Shown here one piece after another: positions 7,446-61,247 of a stretch of 64,000 nucleotides of DNA. The position numbers and the translations under genes are program-made. Position 1 is the first letter of the stretch. Every line of letters begins with the position of its first letter. The stretch lies in the NCBI GenBank assembly GCA_003388555.1, contig QQVD01000071.1, positions 1 to 64,000 on the forward strand, given 5' to 3'. The notes under the pieces are model-generated. The model worked only from the letters and a program-made list of their open reading frames with translations. It had not been told where the DNA came from and searched no databases. The DNA is from Acidobacteriota bacterium. Its GTDB lineage: Bacteria; Acidobacteriota; Thermoanaerobaculia; Multivoradales; Multivoraceae.

Positions 7446-8741
7446 GTGGGTCGACCCGGCCGGCACCGGCGAGCCGGCGTCGGCGCCGCGCCGGCTCCTC
7501 GCCGCACCCCGAGAGCTCCTTTCGTGCCCACCGAACCCACACCGGCCGTCGAGCGCGCTGCGGCCGCGGCCCGCAGCGCTGGCGAGGCAGGTGCGTCGTC
7601 ACGAGGCCGCCTGGCGCTGATCGGCAGCCGCGGCATCCCGGCCCGCTACGGCGGTTACGAGACCTTCCTCGAGCGACTGACCCCCCACCTCGTGGAGGCG
7701 GGATTCGAGGTCACCGTCTACTGTCGCTCGCACTACACCCGGCCGGACGAGCGCAGCCATCTCGGAGGTCATCTGAGGAGGCTGCCCACCGTGCGCAGCA
7801 AGTACCTCGACACGCCGATCCACACCCTGCTCTCCTGCTGCGACGCGCTGAGGAGGCGTTTCGACGCCGCCCTGGTGGTCAACGGCATCAACGCCCCCTT
7901 CGTGCCGCTGCTGCGGCTGGTCGGCACGCGGACGGCGCTGCACGTCGACGGCATCGAGAGCCAGCGCGCCAAGTGGGGCCTCATCGGACGCCTCGCCTAC
8001 CGTCTCTGCGAGCGGCTGGCGCCGCGTGTCGCCTCGCGCCTGGTCACCGACGCGGCGGTCATCGAGCGTCACTACCTGGAGCGCTACGGGGCCGGCTCGA
8101 CCATGATCCCCTATGGCTCGACGCTCGAGCCGCCGCCGCCGGGGGAGCCGACGCTGCAGCGCCTGGGACTGCGTCGCAGAGGCTACTTCCTCTACGTCAG
8201 CCGCTTCGAGCCCGAGAACAACCCGCATCGCGTCGTCGCCGCCTACCGCAGCTCGGGCTGCCGGACGCCCCTGGTGATGGTCGGCGACGCGCCCTACGCC
8301 GACGACTTCATCCGCTCCTTCCGTCGAGGCGACGACCCCCGGGTGCTCTTCCCCGGCGCCATCTATGGCGAGGGCTATCGTGCGCTGCAGCACGGCGCTC
8401 TCGCCTACGTGCACGCCACCGAGGTCGGCGGCACCCACCCGGCGCTGGTCGAGGCGATGGGCGCCGCGAACTGCGTCCTGGTCAACGACACTCCGGAGAA
8501 CCGCGAGGTGGCGGGCGACGCCGGGCTCTACTTCCGGGCCGGCGATCCCGAGAGCCTGCGCCAGCTGCTCGAGCGCATCGAGTCGGATCCGGCGGCTGCC
8601 GAGGACCTCGGTCGCCGTGCCGCCCGGCGCGCCGAGGCCGCCTACTCCTGGACCGCCGTGGCGCGGCTCTACGTCGAGCTCTTCGACCAGCTCGTCGCCG
8701 CTCGGGGCGGCACCAGGGCCGCCGCGACGAAAGTCCCGTAG
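7446..8741 (+). CDS. GT4 glycosyltransferase with DUF1972 N-terminus
   Basis: A GT-B fold glycosyltransferase of up to 431 residues. The DUF1972-type N-terminus reads IGSRGIPARYGGYETFLERL, as in rhamnosyltransferases of capsule and S-layer glycan clusters. The GT4 C-terminal half has YVSRFEPENNPHRVV and the EVGGTHPALVEAMG donor-binding loop. It probably transfers a sugar to a lipid-linked acceptor in the same pathway as its neighbours. The GTG at 7446 lies four bases after the preceding stop. A second GTG at 7524 would give 405 residues and cannot be excluded, because neither has a clear ribosome site and the domain begins near residue 41. Confidence 0.9.
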   Translation: MGRPGRHRRAGVGAAPAPRRTPRAPFVPTEPTPAVERAAAAARSAGEAGASSRGRLALIGSRGIPARYGGYETFLERLTPHLVEAGFEVTVYCRSHYTRPDERSHLGGHLRRLPTVRSKYLDTPIHTLLSCCDALRRRFDAALVVNGINAPFVPLLRLVGTRTALHVDGIESQRAKWGLIGRLAYRLCERLAPRVASRLVTDAAVIERHYLERYGAGSTMIPYGSTLEPPPPGEPTLQRLGLRRRGYFLYVSRFEPENNPHRVVAAYRSSGCRTPLVMVGDAPYADDFIRSFRRGDDPRVLFPGAIYGEGYRALQHGALAYVHATEVGGTHPALVEAMGAANCVLVNDTPENREVAGDAGLYFRAGDPESLRQLLERIESDPAAAEDLGRRAARRAEAAYSWTAVARLYVELFDQLVAARGGTRAAATKVP

Positions 8742-46006: not shown

Positions 46007-46297
46007 TCAGTGCACCGTCCGCTCGGGCTCGGGCGCCTCACGGATCTCGCCGTGGGTCTTCTCGTAGCGCTCGAGGTTGGCCTGCAGCGCCCGGATGATG
46101 CGCTTCAGGTGACCCGGGCTGGTGATGATCCTCGCGGACACCACCCCCTGGGGCGGCACCAGGTTGATGAAGTCGAGGATGAACTCCTCGCTGGTGTGGG
46201 CGATCCGCAGGAGATTGGAGTAGGCCCCCTTGAGCTCGTCATCGCCGATCTTGATGTTCACCTCGGCCTGCGGCCGTGGTGTCTGGTCGTCAGCCAT
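46007..46297 (-). CDS. DUF3467 protein
   Basis: A 96-residue protein. It has an NIKIGDDELKGAYSNLLRIA strand-rich start, then SEEFILDFINLVPPQGVVSA and SPGHLKRIIRALQANLERYE. These match the DUF3467 family of small bacterial proteins, whose function is not established. GGAGGAG precedes ATG 46297. The first 8 bases overlap the 3' end of the wzt-like gene, suggesting coupling to ABC export, although the family often occurs elsewhere. Confidence 0.85.
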   Translation of the reverse strand: MADDQTPRPQAEVNIKIGDDELKGAYSNLLRIAHTSEEFILDFINLVPPQGVVSARIITSPGHLKRIIRALQANLERYEKTHGEIREAPEPERTVH

Positions 46298-47744
46298 CGC
46301 GCTCCTCCCCCGTGGACCGGATCGGCGAGCCCTGCGGCTCGTCCTCGGTCGGCTCTTCGCCCCTCGGCTCGGGCTCCGGAGACGCCAGGTCGACGTCGCC
46401 GGAGAAGCTCCAGGCGTGAGGCGGCGCGTAGACGCCGACGCCCCGCGCCTGCGAGTGCACGGTGAACCGGAAGAGCTTGCGTCGGTAGTCGTACGGTGCT
46501 CCGTTGCGGGCATGGACCGCGACGTCGACGTCGTACTCGCCCGGCGCCAGGCACAGTGATGGGCAGTGTACTTCGATCCTCGCCGCGCCGCGCAGTGAGC
46601 GTGACTTGAACCCGGCGAGATCGGTGTTGGTGCCCCAGCACTCGACGCCACGCGGGGTGCTGATCGCGATGCCGAAGACGAAATCGTCGAGCGGTGTCGC
46701 CGCGTCGACCTCGATCTCGATCGAGGCGGGGGAACCGCTGCGCATCACGTAGTCCTCCCGGCCGCCCACCAGGAGCCGGGCCGCAACGATCTCCGCCTGC
46801 CGGGAGCCCCAACGCCGGTCGTCCGGGCTCGACGTCGCCTCGGCTTCGCGCTCGACCGACGCCTCGGTCCGATCGCCTCCTCCGCCGTCGGCGCTGCGCC
46901 GGTCGAGCTCGCGCCGGTGTTCCTCGCCCTCCTGGCGAGCCACCAGCTCGCGGTAGGCGTCGATCACCTTGCGTGGCGAGCCGAGGGCACGCACTTCGCC
47001 GTGCTCGAGCCAGAGCACGCGATCACAGAGGTCCTCGACCAGATCGAGGCTGTGCGAGACGAAGAGGATCGAGCGACCTCTCGCCAGGTGTTCCTCGATC
47101 CGGCGCAGACAGCGGTGCGCGAAGGCCTCGTCGCCCACCGCCAGCACCTCGTCGACCAGAAGCACGTCGGGGTCGGTGTGGATCGCCACCGCGAAGCCCA
47201 GCCGCACGTACATTCCCGACGAGTAGTTCTTGACCGGCTCGTCGATGAAGTCCTCGAGGCCCGAGAATTCGACGATGTCGTCGAAGCGACGCTCGATCTC
47301 GCGCCGCTCGAGGCCGAGCACCGAGCCGTTGATGAAGACGTTCTCGCGGCCCGAGATCTCGGGATGGAAGCCGGCGCCGAGCTCGATCAGCGCCGCCACG
47401 CGCCCCTCGACCTCGACGACTCCGGAGGAGGGACGCACCAGGCCGGCCACCAGCTTGAGCAGCGTCGACTTGCCGGAGCCGTTGCCTCCGATGACCCCGA
47501 ACGCCTCGCCGCGGCCGACCTCGAAGTCGACGTCGCGCAGCGCCCGGATCGACTCCTCCGCGCTCAGCCCGGCGGTGAGCGAGCCCTGCAGCAGGGCGCT
47601 CTTCAGGGTGCGCAGACGGAAGCCCGCGCCCATGCGGCGATAGTTCTTGCTGACCCCGCGCACGCGGATCGCCGGCGCCGTCGCGTCACGATCCTGCGCA
47701 CCGACGACGTCGACCCCGGCAATCCGCGTCGATGCGCCGTTCAC
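46290..47744 (-). CDS. wzt: Wzt-like polysaccharide ABC exporter ATPase
   Basis: A 484-residue ATPase. The nucleotide-binding domain (about residues 25-270) has Walker A VIGGNGSGKSTLLKL, ELGAGFHPEISGRENVFING, signature NYSSGMYVRLGFAVA and Walker B DVLLVDEVLAVGDEAFAHRC. After an acidic/Arg linker (about 270-310), a beta-rich C-terminal domain (about 310-450) resembles the Wzt carbohydrate-recognition domain, with GVECWGTNTDLAGF and LAPGEYDVDVAVHARNG. The domain normally reads the glycan terminus to gate export. The gene overlaps its Wzm partner by 4 bp and the DUF3467 gene by 8 bp. Confidence 0.95.
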   Translation of the reverse strand: MNGASTRIAGVDVVGAQDRDATAPAIRVRGVSKNYRRMGAGFRLRTLKSALLQGSLTAGLSAEESIRALRDVDFEVGRGEAFGVIGGNGSGKSTLLKLVAGLVRPSSGVVEVEGRVAALIELGAGFHPEISGRENVFINGSVLGLERREIERRFDDIVEFSGLEDFIDEPVKNYSSGMYVRLGFAVAIHTDPDVLLVDEVLAVGDEAFAHRCLRRIEEHLARGRSILFVSHSLDLVEDLCDRVLWLEHGEVRALGSPRKVIDAYRELVARQEGEEHRRELDRRSADGGGGDRTEASVEREAEATSSPDDRRWGSRQAEIVAARLLVGGREDYVMRSGSPASIEIEVDAATPLDDFVFGIAISTPRGVECWGTNTDLAGFKSRSLRGAARIEVHCPSLCLAPGEYDVDVAVHARNGAPYDYRRKLFRFTVHSQARGVGVYAPPHAWSFSGDVDLASPEPEPRGEEPTEDEPQGSPIRSTGEERDG

Positions 47745-48628
47745 ACCGCCTCCACCAGGGTGTCCTCGAGCCGACGGAAGAGCGCGCCTCCCAGCACGAA
47801 GCAGACCGCCGCCACGGTGACCATCTGGAGCCAGAGCCCGACTCCCGGGAGATCACCGCGGAAGAGGGTCTCCTGGTAGGCCAGCGCGAACGGGGTGAAC
47901 GGGTTGCAGCGGATCAGCAGCTGCACCGCGCGCACCGGGATGTCGTCGATGGCATAGAGCACCGGGGCGAGGAAGAAGAGCAGCTGGAGCAGGTTGGCCA
48001 GCAGATCGCGGATGTCCTTGAAGTGTACGCACGCCGCGGCGAGCCCGAGGGCCGCGCCGGCCAGCGCCACCAGCTGGAGGGCCACCACCCCGAGCACCGC
48101 GGGCGAGAAGGCGCCGAGCACGTCGTATCCGAGCAGTCGACCGAGGATCAGGGCGCCGAAGAGGACGGGGAGCGCCAACAGGAAGTGCACCAGGTTGGCG
48201 CCGACCGAGACCAGCGGCAGGATCTCGCAGGGGAAGACAGCCTTGCGGATCAGGCCCGCGTTGGCGCTCAGCGACACGGCTCCTTCGAGCAGTGAGGTGC
48301 TGGTCCAGATCCACGGGAACAGCCCGGTGATCAGGAAGAGGGCATACGGGTCCTTGCTCGAGCCGTCGCCGAGTCGGGGCGCCAGGATGGTGCCGAAGAC
48401 CAGGGTGTACACGGCGAGCAGCATCAGCGGGTTGACCAGCGACCAGACGAAGCCCAGCGCGCTGCCGCGATAGCGCGCCTTGAGCTCGCGCACCGTGAGC
48501 ACGCGCAGCAGCTCGCGCCGACGCCAGGCGCCGACGGTCAGGCTGAGAACGCCGCGGCGGGCGGGCAGAGGTTGGCTGGTCGGAGGTGCGGACTGCACGG
48601 CGGGCTCCAATTGTGCTCGATTCCGCAT
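47741..48628 (-). CDS. wzm: Wzm-like polysaccharide ABC exporter permease
   Basis: A 295-residue ABC-2 permease with six predicted helices. The hallmark start of the membrane domain is LKARYRGSALGFVWSLVNPL, followed by LLAVYTLVFGTIL. GLFPWIWTSTSLLEGAVSLS and the C-terminal FALAYQETLFRGDLPGVG are also present. With Wzt it should move an undecaprenyl-linked glycan across the inner membrane, plausibly the product of the 2-10 kb cluster, though no sequence link proves that. The ribosome site is weak. Its 3' end overlaps wzt (ATGA). Confidence 0.94.
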   Translation of the reverse strand: MRNRAQLEPAVQSAPPTSQPLPARRGVLSLTVGAWRRRELLRVLTVRELKARYRGSALGFVWSLVNPLMLLAVYTLVFGTILAPRLGDGSSKDPYALFLITGLFPWIWTSTSLLEGAVSLSANAGLIRKAVFPCEILPLVSVGANLVHFLLALPVLFGALILGRLLGYDVLGAFSPAVLGVVALQLVALAGAALGLAAACVHFKDIRDLLANLLQLLFFLAPVLYAIDDIPVRAVQLLIRCNPFTPFALAYQETLFRGDLPGVGLWLQMVTVAAVCFVLGGALFRRLEDTLVEAV

Positions 48629-49713: not shown

Positions 49714-52029
49714 TCATGCCGGGCCGATCCCCGCCGCCGCGGGACCGGTCCGTGTCTGAGTTGGATCGTCCCGCTCGATCGCCAGCGGCCTCGCCTCGGG
49801 GGCCAGTCGCAGGTAGCGCGGTTGCGGGCCAAGCTGGAGGTGCGCCTGCGAGGGCAGCTCGGCTCCATCACGATCGACCGCGCCGAGCACGTGGCCCGGC
49901 ACCGCGACGTGGCTGTCGCGACCGTCGAGCGTCCAGCCGACCAGCGTCTGGCGGCCGTCCGGCCAGACGAAACGGAACAACCGCTGACGCTCGTTCACCG
50001 TACCGACCGGACCGAGACTGCGGGCTCCCGAGAGCTCGGCCTGCATCTGCTGCAGGGCCCGGAACGAGGGGCGGCGTGCCAGCTCGTCACCGACCGGATC
50101 GATCAGGCCGTAGCCCTTCGACACCAGCTGCCACCAGAACACCTTCTCCACCAGGCCGGTCGAGAGCGCCTGCACGAAGTAGCGCACCAGGTACCCGGCC
50201 TGGGTCGCCTCGTCGACCGCCACGTCGCGTCCCGCCGGCGAGTGCGGTCCCTGCCAGAGGGGCCAGTTGAACTCGGTGATCCAGCTGCGTCCACTGGGGC
50301 AGTTGCGCGAGGTCTCGGCGATGGCCCGCAGCATGCGCAGCTTGCCCTCGAGATCGAGTCCGAGCTGGCGGTTCTCCGGCGCACCGCGACGGTCCACGTA
50401 GAGGAGGCTCGCCAGGGCGTCGAACTCGAGGCCCTCTCGCCGAAGGTTGGCCAGCGCCGCGGTGGCGTAGAGCTCGAAATCGATCACCGCCGGACCGAGC
50501 AGCAGGACGTCGGGTCGCGCCGCGCGCAGCTCGGTCGCCGCCCGGCGGTACAGCTCGACGTACTCCGAGGGTCGCCAGATGCCCCACTTGCTGCGATTCG
50601 GCGCCTGGCCGACCTGGAACGCCCTGCCCAGCGGCGCGAAGCGCCTCGCCAGCTCGCGCACCCTGCGTGTCCACAGGTCGGGATCGCGCACGAGATCGCG
50701 GTTCTGCGGCAACGCGAACGTCAGCGTCACGCCGTCCGCCGCGAGCAGTTCGGCGAGCTCGAGCTCCGCCCCGTTCTCGCTCTGCCAGGGGTGCAGACGC
50801 AGCAGCACCTCGCCGACACCGAGAGCGCGCACCGCGTCGCGCAGTCGCTTCGGGTCGCCGCCCGGCCGCAGTCCGACTCCGACGCCACGGAACTCGCTCG
50901 GCTCGGCGTAGAGGGATTCCTCGAGCTCCTTCATCCGGCGCCGTACCGCGGCCAGGTGCAGGGCCACGCCGCCGAGCGCGAGGGCGTGCTCCGGCAGATC
51001 GCGCAACCGCACGATCAGCTTCTCGCTCCTGGTGGCGTGCTGGTGCGGTTGATCCGACAGGGCGTCCCAGACGATCTTGTCGCGCGACGATGCCCGAGCC
51101 GCGGCCGGCGGGATGTGGGCATGCGGCCGGCGGCGCGGCAGCAGTAGGTCGCCGATCCGGCGACCCAGGCCTCGTACGCCTCGCTTCGAGCGGTTCTTGA
51201 GCAGAAACCCCCTCCGCAACACTTCGTAGACGCCCCGCCACGGGCCGAGCCTCTCACCGGTGGTGCGCTCGTAGCCGTCGAGCAGCGCCTGGCGCTGGTC
51301 GCGCCGTGGCGCCGGCATGCGCGAGAGGTCGCGGACCCGCTGCAGACGGCTCAGCTGTCGGCCGACCCGGGCCCGGTTCAGGTCGAGCAGCAGCAGCGGC
51401 GGAGACGGCTCGGAGGTCTCGGTTCCACCCGGCCGGAAGGCGCGCGGATCGATCAGCACGTTGCCGGCGGTCAGGTCACGGTGCCAGAAGCGGCCGTCGT
51501 GCAGCCGCGCGGCGACTCGGCCGATCTCACGGAAGACGGCCTCGGCATCGATCTGCGGATAGTCGACGTCCGCCGTTCCGGCCTCGAGGGCGCGCACCAG
51601 GTAGCGCGCCTCCAGGCGGTCGGTGGCGAGCCGGCAGACGTAGAAACACGGCCCCGCGAGGTCACTCGAATCGAGGTACGCGATCGGTTCCGGCGTTCCG
51701 ACTCCGATCTCACCGAGACGCAGGGCGTGGCGGAAGCTCAGCTGCGCCTTGCTGCCGCGCTGACGTCGCCGCAGGCGCGCCTTGAAGGTGTCGTTGCGGA
51801 ACTGCTTGACCACCACGGTCGCCGCCGTCGCGCCCTCTCCGAGCCGCGCGCTGTAGAGGTAGTTGCGCCCCCAGTGCAGCGTCTCGAGGGCGGCGGACGG
51901 GTCGACAAGGCGCAGCAGTCGCTCGGCGACCTCGGGGGTCGCGTGGTCCCGCACCACCTCGCCGACGAAGTCGCCGCAGCGGATCGGCGCCGTCGCGGCC
52001 TCGGCGATCTGACGATTCGGCGTGCTCAC
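49714..52029 (-). CDS. WaaP/Kdo-kinase-like domain fused to glycosidase-like barrel
   Basis: A 771-residue two-domain protein. The N-terminal part (about 15-300) is a lipopolysaccharide-kinase fold: ATP-site lysine in TVVVKQFRND (Lys75), catalytic loop FWHRDLTAGNVLID (183-190) and metal-binding LLLLDLNRARVG (Asp216). A basic linker (FLLKNRSKRGVRG, LLLPRRRPHAH) follows. The C-terminal part (about 380-660) looks like a (beta/alpha)8 glycosidase. RLHPWQSENG, QVGQAPNRSKWGIWRP and SWITEFNWPLWQGP supply an acid/base-like position and a possible nucleophile, Glu586. A beta-rich tail (about 675-771) follows. No signal peptide is seen. GTG 52029 lies 78 bp after rng, placing it in the shape operon. 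Substrates are unknown. Confidence 0.85.
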   Translation of the reverse strand: MSTPNRQIAEAATAPIRCGDFVGEVVRDHATPEVAERLLRLVDPSAALETLHWGRNYLYSARLGEGATAATVVVKQFRNDTFKARLRRRQRGSKAQLSFRHALRLGEIGVGTPEPIAYLDSSDLAGPCFYVCRLATDRLEARYLVRALEAGTADVDYPQIDAEAVFREIGRVAARLHDGRFWHRDLTAGNVLIDPRAFRPGGTETSEPSPPLLLLDLNRARVGRQLSRLQRVRDLSRMPAPRRDQRQALLDGYERTTGERLGPWRGVYEVLRRGFLLKNRSKRGVRGLGRRIGDLLLPRRRPHAHIPPAAARASSRDKIVWDALSDQPHQHATRSEKLIVRLRDLPEHALALGGVALHLAAVRRRMKELEESLYAEPSEFRGVGVGLRPGGDPKRLRDAVRALGVGEVLLRLHPWQSENGAELELAELLAADGVTLTFALPQNRDLVRDPDLWTRRVRELARRFAPLGRAFQVGQAPNRSKWGIWRPSEYVELYRRAATELRAARPDVLLLGPAVIDFELYATAALANLRREGLEFDALASLLYVDRRGAPENRQLGLDLEGKLRMLRAIAETSRNCPSGRSWITEFNWPLWQGPHSPAGRDVAVDEATQAGYLVRYFVQALSTGLVEKVFWWQLVSKGYGLIDPVGDELARRPSFRALQQMQAELSGARSLGPVGTVNERQRLFRFVWPDGRQTLVGWTLDGRDSHVAVPGHVLGAVDRDGAELPSQAHLQLGPQPRYLRLAPEARPLAIERDDPTQTRTGPAAAGIGPA

Positions 52030-52106: not shown

Positions 52107-53612
52107 TCAGGCCTCGGTGAGATCGAACCGTTCGTGATGCAGGTCGGCGTCGCTCTGCAGCAGCACCGGGGCGCCCGACGCGGCGTGCAACTCGTCGAGG
52201 ATCGCCCGCTCCGACGTCTGCAGAGCGCCGGCGACCTCGGGGTGGACACGCAGCAGGATCTCCTGCGGCGGCGGCGTGCGGCGCAGCATCTTCAGCGCCT
52301 CGCGGCGGATGTTGAGACAGATCGTGCGTGTCTTCTTGATCCTCCCCGATCCGTGGCAGTAGGGACACCGTCGGGTCAGGGAACGCTCGAGATTGGCCCG
52401 GCTGCGCTTGCGCGTCACCTCGACCAGCCCGAACTCGGAGATCTTCAGCAGCTTGCTGCGGGCGCGGTCCTTGGCGAGCTCGCCCTCCAGGGCGGCGAAC
52501 ACCTGCTCGCGATGCTCCTGCACCGTCATGTCGATCAGATCGATGATCAGGATGCCGCTGAGATCGCGCAACCGGATCTGGCGCACGATCTCTCCGGCCG
52601 CCTCGAGATTCGTGCGCAGCACCGTGTCCTCGAGGCTGTGCTGACCGACGTAGCGCCCCGTGTTGACGTCGATGGCGACGAGCGCCTCGGTCTGGTTGAT
52701 CACCAGGTAGCCGCCAGACTTGAGCCACACCTTGCTCGACAGAGCCGCTTCGATCTCCTGCTCGATGTTGAAGCTGTCGAAGAGGCCAGCCTCGCGCCTG
52801 TCGAGGCGAACCCGGCCTGCCAGGGCCGGCTGCACCTCGTCGAGGAACTCGACGACACGCTGGTAGATCTCCTCGTCGTCGACCCAGAGAGCCGAGAACT
52901 CGTCGGAGAAGACGTCGCGCACGACCCGCAGCGCCAGGTCCAGATCGCGGTGCAGGAGCACCGGAGCACCAGCCTTTCGGGAGCTCTCCTGGATGCGGGC
53001 CCACAGCTGCGTGAGGTAGCGCGCGTCGCGCTCGAACTCCAGGTCGCTGCGGCCCTCGCCCGCGGTGCGCACGATCAGCCCTCCGCCCGCGGTGCCGATC
53101 TCCTGCAGGATGGTGCGCAACCGCGCCCGCTCGTCCTCCGACTCGACGCGACGCGAGATGCCGATGTGGTCGACCGTCGGCAGCAGGACGAGGTAGCGAC
53201 TCGGAAGCGTCACGTTGGTGGACACCCGGGCGCCCTTGTTGGCGATCGCGTCCTTGGTGACCTGGACCACCACCTCCTGGCCGACCCGGAGAAGCTCCTC
53301 GATCGGGCGTGTGGCTGGTTCTTCACCGCGCTCCACGGCCAGGCCCTGACCGCGCAGCTCCTCGGACTCGCCCTCTTCGAGCTCCACCTGCACCACGTCG
53401 GCGACGTAGAGGAAGGCGTCGCGCTCGAGCCCGATGTCGACGAAGGCGGCTTGCATTCCCGGCAGGACCCGGGTGACCCGCCCCTTGTACAGGTTGCCGA
53501 CCACGCCGCCCTCGCCGCGCGGCTCGATGTAGATCTCGGTGAGCCGATCGGCCTCGAGCACGGCGATTCGCACCTGGTGCGGATCACCTTCGATCAGCAT
53601 CTTCTTGATCAT
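52107..53612 (-). CDS. rng: Ribonuclease G
   Basis: A 501-residue RNase E/G-family endonuclease. The S1-type domain has GNLYKGRVTRVLPGMQAAFV and DIGLERDAFLYVADV. Catalytic aspartates are in LVAIDVNTGRYVG and LSGILIIDLIDM. A zinc-link is CPYCHGSGRI (two Cys, of the CPxC type), and the C-terminus holds a small extra domain. An acidic insert of about 25 residues (EGESEELRGQGLAVERGEEP) lies within the S1 domain. Position behind mrdA-rodA is the classical location, linking rRNA processing and turnover to shape genes. ATG 53612. Confidence 0.95.
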   Translation of the reverse strand: MIKKMLIEGDPHQVRIAVLEADRLTEIYIEPRGEGGVVGNLYKGRVTRVLPGMQAAFVDIGLERDAFLYVADVVQVELEEGESEELRGQGLAVERGEEPATRPIEELLRVGQEVVVQVTKDAIANKGARVSTNVTLPSRYLVLLPTVDHIGISRRVESEDERARLRTILQEIGTAGGGLIVRTAGEGRSDLEFERDARYLTQLWARIQESSRKAGAPVLLHRDLDLALRVVRDVFSDEFSALWVDDEEIYQRVVEFLDEVQPALAGRVRLDRREAGLFDSFNIEQEIEAALSSKVWLKSGGYLVINQTEALVAIDVNTGRYVGQHSLEDTVLRTNLEAAGEIVRQIRLRDLSGILIIDLIDMTVQEHREQVFAALEGELAKDRARSKLLKISEFGLVEVTRKRSRANLERSLTRRCPYCHGSGRIKKTRTICLNIRREALKMLRRTPPPQEILLRVHPEVAGALQTSERAILDELHAASGAPVLLQSDADLHHERFDLTEA

Positions 53613-59400: not shown

Positions 59401-60828
59401 TCAGGCCTCGTCGAGATACACCCAGTGTTGCCGCACCGTATCATTGCCGGCGGCGTCTACCGCACGAAAAGTCAAGGGGATGCGGCCGGCACCGAACAAC
59501 CACCGCGTGCTGACGAAGGTGCCGTCGGCGGCCACCGAGATCTCCTCGCCGTTGACCTCGAGAGTCGCCCCCGGTTCGGTGCGTCCCTGCACCAGAGCCA
59601 GGTTGCCGCTGAGGAAGACCTCTACCTCGAGGGCTGGAGGCGAGCGGTCCACCTCGAGCGCCAGGTTGCGGTAGGAGTCCACCCGCAGCCAGCGGGACTC
59701 GCTCCACGGACCCTGGTTGCCGCGGCCGTCGATCGCCGCCACCCGCCAGGCGAAGGTGCCGGGTTCGCGCAGACCCAGGCGGGTCGACGGCCGGCGGCGG
59801 TCGGTGACGTCGACGTAGGTCTCGGCGAACAAACGGCTGCCCGAAACCTGCAGCGCGTAGCGCACCGCTCCCGGCTGCGGGTCCCATTCGAGCACGACGT
59901 CGCGCTGGGCGTCGATGTTGACCCCCTGACCGTCCTCCGGCGCGGTCAGGTCCACCCGTTCCGGCAGGTCGACGGTGGCGCCGAACGTGCCGTCTTGGCG
60001 CAGCTCCACCTTCTGGAGGCCGCCGAGCCGCCGCGACTCGCCGCTGCCGCTCGACCTCGCCGTCGCCTCACCGCTGTCGACCCGGATCTCGGTCGAGCCG
60101 CGCCCCTGCTCGAGGGCGACCGAGGCGCGCGAGTTCTCGGCCACGATCAGATCGGCGGAGCGGGTGCGCACGCCGGTCGAGGTCTCGGAGGTGCTGAGCG
60201 CCACCCAGCCGTACTCCATCTCGCCGAGGGTCTTCTGGCGACCCGCGAGTTGCCGCGTCAGCTTGACCAGCGAGCCGGGCCGCAGGGTGAACACCGCGTC
60301 CTCCTCGCGGAAGTGGATCTCGGCCGACGAGTTGGCGCTCGACATCACGTAGTCGCCGTCCTGCAGCTCGATGCGCGCGAAGGCGCGCTGGAACTCGCCG
60401 CGCTCGCCGCGCCGGAACCGCACGTCTCCCTGAACGCTGCGGAACCAGGCGATGCTGCGCGCCAGCCGCTGCGCCTCGAGGATCCCCGACAACACCTGAT
60501 GCGCGTCGCGGCCGTGGCGCTCCGCGTCGGCGAAGTCTCGCAGCTCGAGAGAGGCGCGGGCGCGCTCCAGCCGGCCCTCGGCGTAGCTCAGCTCCTCGCG
60601 ATAGACCCGCACGTCGCTCTGGGTCTGAGCCTGGCCGAGCAGGGTCTCCGAGCGCGCCACCCAGGCGAAGGCGCTGCGCTCGAGTCGGCGCTCCTGCCAA
60701 TCGAGGTAGCCGAGGTAGCCGACACCCAGCAGGAACAGCGCCAGCGTGCCGCTGAGCCACAGTCGAACGGTGTCGACCGAGATGCTGTACCAATCGCGGA
60801 GCCGACGACGCTCCCTGGTGTTCTCCAC
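59401..60828 (-). CDS. FecR-domain membrane-anchored protein
   Basis: A 475-residue protein with a short cytoplasmic N-terminus and one helix (about residues 20-38, LSGTLALFLLGVGYLGYLDW). A helical stretch with Ala/Glu/Arg repeats follows (about 40-115), then a FecR-like beta domain (about 120-245) around DGDYVMSSANSSAEIHFREE and LRPGSLVKL. The C-terminal half holds fibronectin-III-like strands: VVLEWDPQPGAVRYALQVSG, FAWRVAAIDGRGNQG and a late PGATLEVNGEEISVAADGTF repeat. It may bind envelope or matrix polymers. Start is GTG 60828 with GAGGT upstream. It lies 119 bp ahead of mreB and may be co-transcribed. Confidence 0.82.
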   Translation of the reverse strand: MENTRERRRLRDWYSISVDTVRLWLSGTLALFLLGVGYLGYLDWQERRLERSAFAWVARSETLLGQAQTQSDVRVYREELSYAEGRLERARASLELRDFADAERHGRDAHQVLSGILEAQRLARSIAWFRSVQGDVRFRRGERGEFQRAFARIELQDGDYVMSSANSSAEIHFREEDAVFTLRPGSLVKLTRQLAGRQKTLGEMEYGWVALSTSETSTGVRTRSADLIVAENSRASVALEQGRGSTEIRVDSGEATARSSGSGESRRLGGLQKVELRQDGTFGATVDLPERVDLTAPEDGQGVNIDAQRDVVLEWDPQPGAVRYALQVSGSRLFAETYVDVTDRRRPSTRLGLREPGTFAWRVAAIDGRGNQGPWSESRWLRVDSYRNLALEVDRSPPALEVEVFLSGNLALVQGRTEPGATLEVNGEEISVAADGTFVSTRWLFGAGRIPLTFRAVDAAGNDTVRQHWVYLDEA

Positions 60829-61247
60829 GTGCCTACCTCGCTCGGCGCCGGCTCTGCCCGGCGACGCCCGACGAGCCTCCCGCCACCGCAAGAGCCCCCG
60901 ACGACACCATCCGCTCGCCACCAGCCGACCGGATCGACGGAGCCGAGAGGAAACGCCGACGCGCGCTCGACCCGAGCCTCTGCAAACTCCGCGCCGTGTA
61001 CCCTGCTGAGCCGCAGAAAGTTAGCACGTTCCGCGCCCTCTCCGCCACGGCAGCGGGCGTCGACGGTCGGCAATCGAACGCCGCCGCACGACGGTCCTCC
61101 ACCGCGGCGCACCGGCCCGGCTCCCTCCCTGGTCGTGTGGCGCTGGAGAGGACTTCGGGTGGCTCCCTGCGTTAGACTCCGGGTTTGATCTTCGGTCCGC
61201 GGCCGCGGGCCGGGCGGGCGCAGCGCGCCCCACAGGAGTTTCTCGTC
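60829..61247. other. Gene-less divergent region
   Basis: The 419 bp between the FecR-like and PpiD-like genes contain no gene. TAGACT at 61173-61178 is a likely -10 for the plus-strand gene (leader about 63 bases) without a good -35. An in-frame TTG at 61185 is not used as a start, because the family N-terminus lies at 61248. Confidence 0.4.

Follow-up and report, generated by a model that had tools for sequence, protein, structure and literature searches.

A WaaP-type kinase joined to a glycosidase-like barrel without the usual acid/base glutamate: a candidate lipopolysaccharide-core kinase of Acidobacteriota

The gene described here lies in a 64,000-nucleotide stretch of an Acidobacteriota genome (assembly GCA_003388555.1, contig QQVD01000071.1, positions 1 to 64,000; hereafter the window). 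It runs on the minus strand from 52029 to 49714, starts with GTG and encodes a chain of 771 amino acids that combines a kinase of the WaaP type with a barrel of the GH39/PslG type. As shown by the alignments and predicted structures, the kinase motifs are intact, and the barrel appears to have lost the acid/base glutamate while keeping the nucleophile and a near-invariant pocket. The pairing is kept in many Acidobacteriota. Our preferred explanation, held with moderate confidence, is that the protein is a cytoplasmic lipopolysaccharide (LPS)-core sugar kinase whose glycosidase-derived barrel binds and positions a lipid-linked glycan without cleaving it. The barrel would have changed from a glycosidase into a module for substrate recognition, and would bind the lipid A-core oligosaccharide, or another lipid-linked one, on the cytoplasmic side of the inner membrane. 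The sugar that it presents to the kinase may be 3-deoxy-D-manno-octulosonic acid (Kdo) or another of the inner core, and the kinase would move phosphate from ATP onto this one sugar at the cytoplasmic face before export.

The fused gene stands at the end of an mreBCD-pbp2-rodA-rng cluster. The gap from the rng stop codon to the GTG at 52029 is 77 nucleotides, and the reading frame stays open upstream of this start. The kinase domain covers residues 13-296 (51142..51993, minus strand, as are all window features below) and was delimited by the PF06293 match, the profile match to the WaaP structure 6dfl, the invariant residues and the model; it carries K75, the HRD motif at 183-185, N190, D216 and R219. 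A hairpin and a helical cap with a conserved W....DQPH motif are placed by the models and alignments at residues 305-382 (50884..51117), ahead of the (beta/alpha)8 barrel at residues 383-668 (50026..50883). A less conserved C-terminal beta-sandwich is modelled at residues 680-745 (49795..49992). The full-length model was confident, with a mean predicted local distance difference test score (pLDDT) of 90.9 and a predicted template modelling score (pTM) of 0.89, which suggests that kinase and barrel are held in a fixed mutual arrangement. By hydropathy, neither a signal peptide nor a membrane helix is evident in the chain: the best Kyte-Doolittle mean over 19 residues was 1.63, and 0.84 near the N-terminus. 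A first reading of this DNA made without database searches (the sequence-only reading) had likewise seen no signal peptide, and it had placed K75, H183-R184-D185, N190, D216 and the motifs QVGQAPNRSKWG and ITEFNWP where the translation has them.

The N-terminal half is, by profile and motif, a WaaP-type kinase of the WaaP/Kdo family in the broad sense, as that reading had proposed. The Pfam model PF06293 (Kdo/WaaP family) matched residues 82-238 with an E-value of 6.6e-7 and 29.4 bits, above the gathering cut-off of 21.3. This match alone is weak evidence, because PF06293 passes at 22 places in the window's genome, the fused gene included, and the seven other places examined are ordinary protein kinases (Pkinase E-values from 6.8e-13 to 4.3e-44). 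When a kinase profile built from 27 relatives was compared with solved chains, WaaP (6dfl) came first with an E-value of 5.5e-13 and TP53RK second with 3.3e-7, a lead of about six orders of magnitude. An ordinary Ser/Thr kinase was ruled out by WaaP as the top profile match and by the Pkinase E-value of 0.067 for the fused protein itself.

K75, D185, N190, D216 and R219 are invariant across the 27 sequences. The HRD and D-L-x-R motifs align to 6dfl and bring D185, D216 and R219 onto WaaP D163, D188 and R191; K75 is equated with K51 by motif only. The excerpted text of the WaaP study reports that changes of K51, D163, D188 or R191 abolished growth (PMC6147952). The WaaP substrate residues Y165 and H168 are not matched, being T187 and N190 in the fused protein, and R191 corresponds to R219. 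The NCBIfam equivalog cut-offs were missed as well, with 19.9 bits for RfaP (cut-off 170) and 27 bits for the Kdo kinase (cut-off 142). For these reasons, namely the loss of Y165/H168 and the unreached heptose-kinase and Kdo-kinase cut-offs, the substrate sugar is left unnamed.

The AlphaFold2 model of the C-terminal half (pLDDT 92, pTM 0.93) contains a (beta/alpha)8 barrel followed by a beta-sandwich. The top Foldseek matches of the barrel were the Pseudomonas aeruginosa entry 4zn2 (E 2.4e-19), which we take to be PslG, and PslG 5bx9 (E 3.3e-19). VIA-align gave a Z score of 31.6 to the GH39 enzyme 5jvk, with a root-mean-square deviation (rmsd) of 2.6 over 340 residues, and 28.9 to PslG 9g17, with an rmsd of 3.0 over 353 residues. 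The profiles agreed when the barrel was compared by hhalign with ten GH39-like proteins of the phylum (probability 97.2, E 3.7e-11) or with a mixed set (97.1, E 5.3e-11); with a set restricted to larger GH39 proteins, the probability was 16.2 and the E-value 0.0016. We are therefore confident that the C-terminal half, as modelled, is a GH39/PslG-like barrel, and the glycosidase-like barrel that had been read from pattern only is now borne out by fold and profile.

No Pfam glycosidase family was matched in 27 members at an E-value of 1, and PF01229 (GH39) has no match anywhere in the window's genome at 1e-5. Eight unrelated Pfam families, each in 1 of the 27 members and with a best E-value of 0.0017, were taken as chance, as was a single NCBIfam match (0.0073) in 1 of 56. 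The barrel is not filed as a glycosidase, though it is built on the GH39/PslG plan, because a defining feature of that family fails.

Retaining hydrolysis in clan GH-A ordinarily needs an acid/base glutamate. In the best-scoring alignment, that to the ten GH39-like proteins, GQAPN falls on WNEPN and ITEFNW on LTEFGF, which puts A476 (codon 50602..50604) at the acid/base position and E586 (codon 50272..50274, barrel strand 7) at the nucleophile position. The larger-GH39 and mixed sets placed R479 (codon 50593..50595) on the acid/base glutamate and E586 again on the nucleophile. Conservation was counted over 104 rows, made up of the query and 103 distinct strings from 144 fetched stretches, with some genomes present twice and some rows partial. 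A476 is Ala in 103 of the 104 rows and Thr in one (locus L049), and R479 is Arg in all 104. At E586, 102 rows have a residue, which is Glu in 101 and, in L049 again, His. The N-E-P motif is absent from the barrel.

We prefer A476 over R479 as the acid/base position, since its templates are closer, the GQAPN motif lies directly after strand 4 in the model, and the A476-E586 spacing of 110 is near the 111 residues between E165 and E276 in PslG as numbered in the excerpt of PMC9075953. The conclusion that the position is non-acidic is independent of the register, because A476 is Ala or Thr and R479 is Arg throughout the 104 rows. Ordinary retaining hydrolysis by the barrel is thus unlikely from these alignments, as the acid/base glutamate is replaced by a residue that is never acidic. 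An active hydrolase was dropped as the first choice for this missing residue, and with it the earlier proposal that the barrel trims a glycan.

The pocket has nevertheless been kept. Of the 41 barrel residues that are invariant, 31 are found at the active-site ends of the strands, which make up 96 of 296 positions (hypergeometric P 1e-9), and the opposite face holds 1 of the 41 among the 86 positions counted there. Across 47 fused rows, pairwise identity averages 0.60 in the barrel, 0.43 in the kinase and 0.33 in the C-terminal sandwich. By these measures the barrel pocket is under strong constraint and is the most conserved part of the protein.

Such constraint could also be read as a sign of catalysis. 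In a less probable alternative, the barrel is active with altered chemistry: E586 would attack a sugar whose leaving group needs no acid (a sugar phosphate or lipid phosphate, for instance), or else the acid would be D517, E519 or D546. The kinase and the barrel would then carry out successive steps on one glycan. The retained nucleophile in an extremely conserved pocket, the presence of D517 and E519 in all 104 rows and of D546 in 103, and the higher identity of the barrel than of the kinase would all fit. Against this, neither register has a Glu or Asp at the acid/base position in any row, and L049, with Thr and His at the two glutamate positions, still keeps the pairing. More speculative, and doubtful in our view, is the idea that the GH39-fold barrel is a new enzyme of LPS-core synthesis, in which the conserved glutamate, without the usual acid/base residue, would take a sugar from a donor that is phosphorylated or linked through a lipid phosphate, either to pass it on or to set it free, and the chain-coupled kinase would make or mark that donor.

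The two parts occur together in more than one arrangement. Among the best 80 of the 167 named relatives found, 70 carry both halves in a single frame and 7 carry them on adjacent genes. In the other 3 a barrel was seen but no kinase was detected, and one of these is cut by the contig start. An assembly or frame artefact was ruled out by the 70 fused relatives. All 7 adjacent-gene cases are from Candidatus Aminicenantes, and the open frames of their kinase and barrel genes overlap. Barrel genes with no detected kinase alongside were observed in some relatives of the same class, at L144:9956-11335 and L039:4238-5605. The order is reversed in a 732-residue frame of a distant genome, at L049:7449-9647 (G148), barrel first and then kinase. 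Because fused, split and reversed forms all occur, the kinase and the barrel seem to belong together and to serve one function.

The named relatives within the same best 80 are mostly Acidobacteriota, chiefly Thermoanaerobaculia, Holophagae and Candidatus Aminicenantes, with three labelled only 'uncultured bacterium' and one Deltaproteobacteria (L100). A whole-protein search of 396 genomes of the phylum gave matches in 48, three of them to the kinase only (G200, G242 and G349). The barrel profile matched 47 genomes of the phylum, two of them weakly (G394 and G045); the G045 match is an ordinary GH39-like frame with the N-E-P motif. In a kinase tree of 81 rows, rooted at the midpoint, 15 split rows fall in one group and 61 fused rows on the other side. 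The tree leaves the order of fusion and splitting undecided, because of the midpoint root and the long branches of the kinase-only rows. Near-identical rows were excluded from this tree and from alignments A3 (63 rows) and A4 (56 rows); L003, L026 and L041 were excluded from alignment A2, in which L032 and L038 were shortened.

The genomic context of the fused form was then compared with that of the split pairs. In the window, rng (ribonuclease E/G family, 52107..53612, minus strand, Pfam RNase_E_G 2.1e-100) is directly upstream. The same holds in 49 of the 64 fused loci with enough flank, where mre genes, pbp2 and rodA usually lie beyond rng as far as the contig reaches. The gene was not found upstream in 13 of the 64; the counting rule missed L110, where rng is directly upstream, and in L069 rng lies about 4 kb upstream. 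At the split pairs examined, whose flanks vary, no gene of the window's operon was found. The rng linkage is thus real but not general: the position behind rng and the mre genes is as the sequence-only reading gave it and recurs in many fused loci, and at the split pairs examined the linkage was not found.

This bears on a very improbable alternative, in which the protein has a role in cell shape or peptidoglycan elongation and acts on lipid II or another elongasome glycan. The frequent neighbourhood of rng, mre genes, pbp2 and rodA speaks for such a role, as does locus L066 of G200 (7460-8206), where a Kdo/WaaP-family kinase without a barrel sits directly behind rng at the end of an mre cluster. 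It is opposed by the 13 fused loci where rng was not found upstream and by the split pairs, most of them amid LPS-core genes with no window operon gene found, and the proposed link to elongation is accordingly not upheld.

The split locus L044 was annotated by Pfam. A GT4-type glycosyltransferase and a class I methyltransferase adjoin the pair, and a divergent set of genes encodes a GT9 heptosyltransferase, an O-antigen ligase, a PHP-domain protein and a PfkB-type (HldE-like) kinase. When the L044 proteins were used as tblastn queries against 20 split loci, GT9 was found in 14, the O-antigen ligase in 12 and the HldE-like gene in 10; the methyltransferase was found in 17, where it stands directly after the kinase-barrel pair (L044:7099-7797 and equivalents). 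These 20 include L044, the query source, and at least 5 from Aminicenantes, several of the contigs end nearby, and L049, L148, L032 and L039 stand outside the counts. All four genes are present in the Aminicenantes loci L137 and L146. The split pairs are therefore mostly found in an LPS-core locus. The reverse fusion L049 adjoins a lipid A acyltransferase, an ABC exporter and glycosyltransferases. The L044 GT4-type gene matched 9 of 20 genomes chosen; outside its own genome the matches were weak (best 2.2e-16) and are probably generic.

Kdo transferase (PF04413) was matched in 363 of 396 genomes of the phylum. Among these are the 23 other genomes of the window's order, and each of the 23 also bears the barrel. 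In the window's family, 11 of the 12 genomes gave no HldE-like match at 1e-20; ten of these eleven are of one genus, and all 11 carry Kdo transferase. The window's own genome has an HldE-like match, and none of 60 genomes passes the curated cut-off. Given the 11 genomes, heptose as the substrate in this family is doubtful, no more, and the missing matches mildly favour Kdo or another sugar.

An improbable alternative, suggested by the transporter genes nearby, is a WbdD-like capping or length timing of an exported polysaccharide, in which the kinase would mark the chain end, the barrel would read the chain and the nearby ABC transporter would export it. In the window, an ABC-2 type permease (47741..48628, Pfam PF01061 2.6e-17) and an ABC ATPase with a Wzt C-terminal domain (46290..47744, Pfam PF14524 2.6e-25) lie downstream, and 23 of 43 fused loci have a homologue of this Wzt_C-bearing ATPase no more than 8 kb downstream; the methyltransferase directly behind the split pairs would also suit such a system. 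The evidence on the other side is that WaaP is the kinase's best match among solved structures, with WbdD not among the 60 matches listed, and that the split loci examined, with their varying flanks, yielded no such ABC pair. A homologue of the split-locus methyltransferase was also not found in the window's genome, though this was one query and its empty answer shows little.

Several points weigh against a non-cleaving LPS-core kinase and were considered together. The nucleophile glutamate is nearly universal and would be superfluous for a pure binding domain; D517, E519 and D546, which follow strands 5 and 6, could replace the missing acid; and the acid/base register varies with the template set between A476 and R479. 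The PF06293 match is weak by itself, since the model also hits 21 other places in the genome, of which the seven examined are ordinary protein kinases. The fused gene is mostly behind rng or beside unrelated genes, not in LPS loci, and the split locus L038, with 7 kb of upstream sequence, has the methyltransferase only and no GT9, ligase or HldE-like gene. In the window's own genome, no Kdo-transferase (PF04413) match was obtained, which reflects an assembly gap or a real loss, and no LPS-core cluster was seen around its two GT9 places when frame starts were inspected by eye. The non-cleaving kinase is still preferred on the evidence of the kinase profile, the non-acidic position, the conserved pocket and the split loci.

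Other genes of the neighbourhoods were recorded. The PHP-domain gene of the split loci (L044:13538-14761 and equivalents) is flanked by those for the O-antigen ligase and the HldE-like kinase. PMT-family membrane glycosyltransferases stand directly beside the fused gene of L135 (11335-12924) and the kinase-only gene of L050 (9511-11127), and within some kilobases in L067 (4098-5816) and L040 (5028-6989). The L067 kinase makes up one part of a 753-residue frame. In the window, a 506-residue protein with a Glucodextran_B-like C-terminal domain is encoded upstream of mreB (59401-60921, minus strand), and homologues precede mreB in many loci. No defence system was matched by PADLOC.

If the preferred explanation is true, the protein shows how a glycosidase fold that no longer cuts can help an LPS-core kinase to select its sugar, and a role is given to a domain of about 450 residues that matches no Pfam model. 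Core phosphorylation in Acidobacteriota would become directly testable. Barrel-shaped 'glycosidases' in envelope loci would also deserve caution, since they may bind and not cut.

Searches of open-licence PubMed Central papers listed no publication on the pairing of such a kinase with such a barrel. It was compared with five known systems. WaaP (RfaP), the LPS core heptose(I) kinase (PF06293, PDB 6dfl), is the best solved relative by profile, with the HRD and D-L-x-R motifs aligned. The excerpt of PMC6147952 describes it as a soluble cytoplasmic protein. The fused protein differs from WaaP in the unmatched Y165/H168, in falling below the equivalog cut-offs and in the extra barrel of about 450 residues.

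WbdD of E. coli O9a, according to the excerpt of PMC3482155, links glycan kinase and methyltransferase in a pathway that depends on an ABC transporter, and the likeness lies in this combination. The same excerpt places both activities in one protein, unlike the present case, in which no methyltransferase family is matched by Pfam in the 771-residue chain and the methyltransferase is a neighbouring gene at split loci only. WbdD is not known to have such a barrel.

For the barrel, PslG of P. aeruginosa (5bx9, 9g17) is the closest fold by Foldseek and keeps the same nucleophile position. It is also a partner of glycan synthesis at the inner membrane, as the hydrolase of the exopolysaccharide Psl. 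E165 and E276 are described as key to its activity and to Psl production in PMC9075953 and PMC6813494. The equivalent of E165 is non-acidic in the fused protein, and PslG, in the source as excerpted, has a signal peptide, unlike the fused protein, where none is evident. With GH39 and clan GH-A (5jvk) more widely, the protein shares the (beta/alpha)8 barrel and C-terminal beta-sandwich (Z 31.6 over 340 residues) and a weak sequence match in the C-terminal part (E 5.9e-4); it differs in lacking a Pfam GH39 match and the N-E-P motif.

The fifth system is that of the Klotho pseudo-glycosidases, glycosidase barrels that have lost catalysis and serve in binding alongside a kinase system. They are eukaryotic, of the GH1 type, work with a protein receptor and are not known to be fused to a kinase. 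The structure comparison of the barrel also returned 7ysh, presumably a Klotho entry, with a Z score of 22.6.

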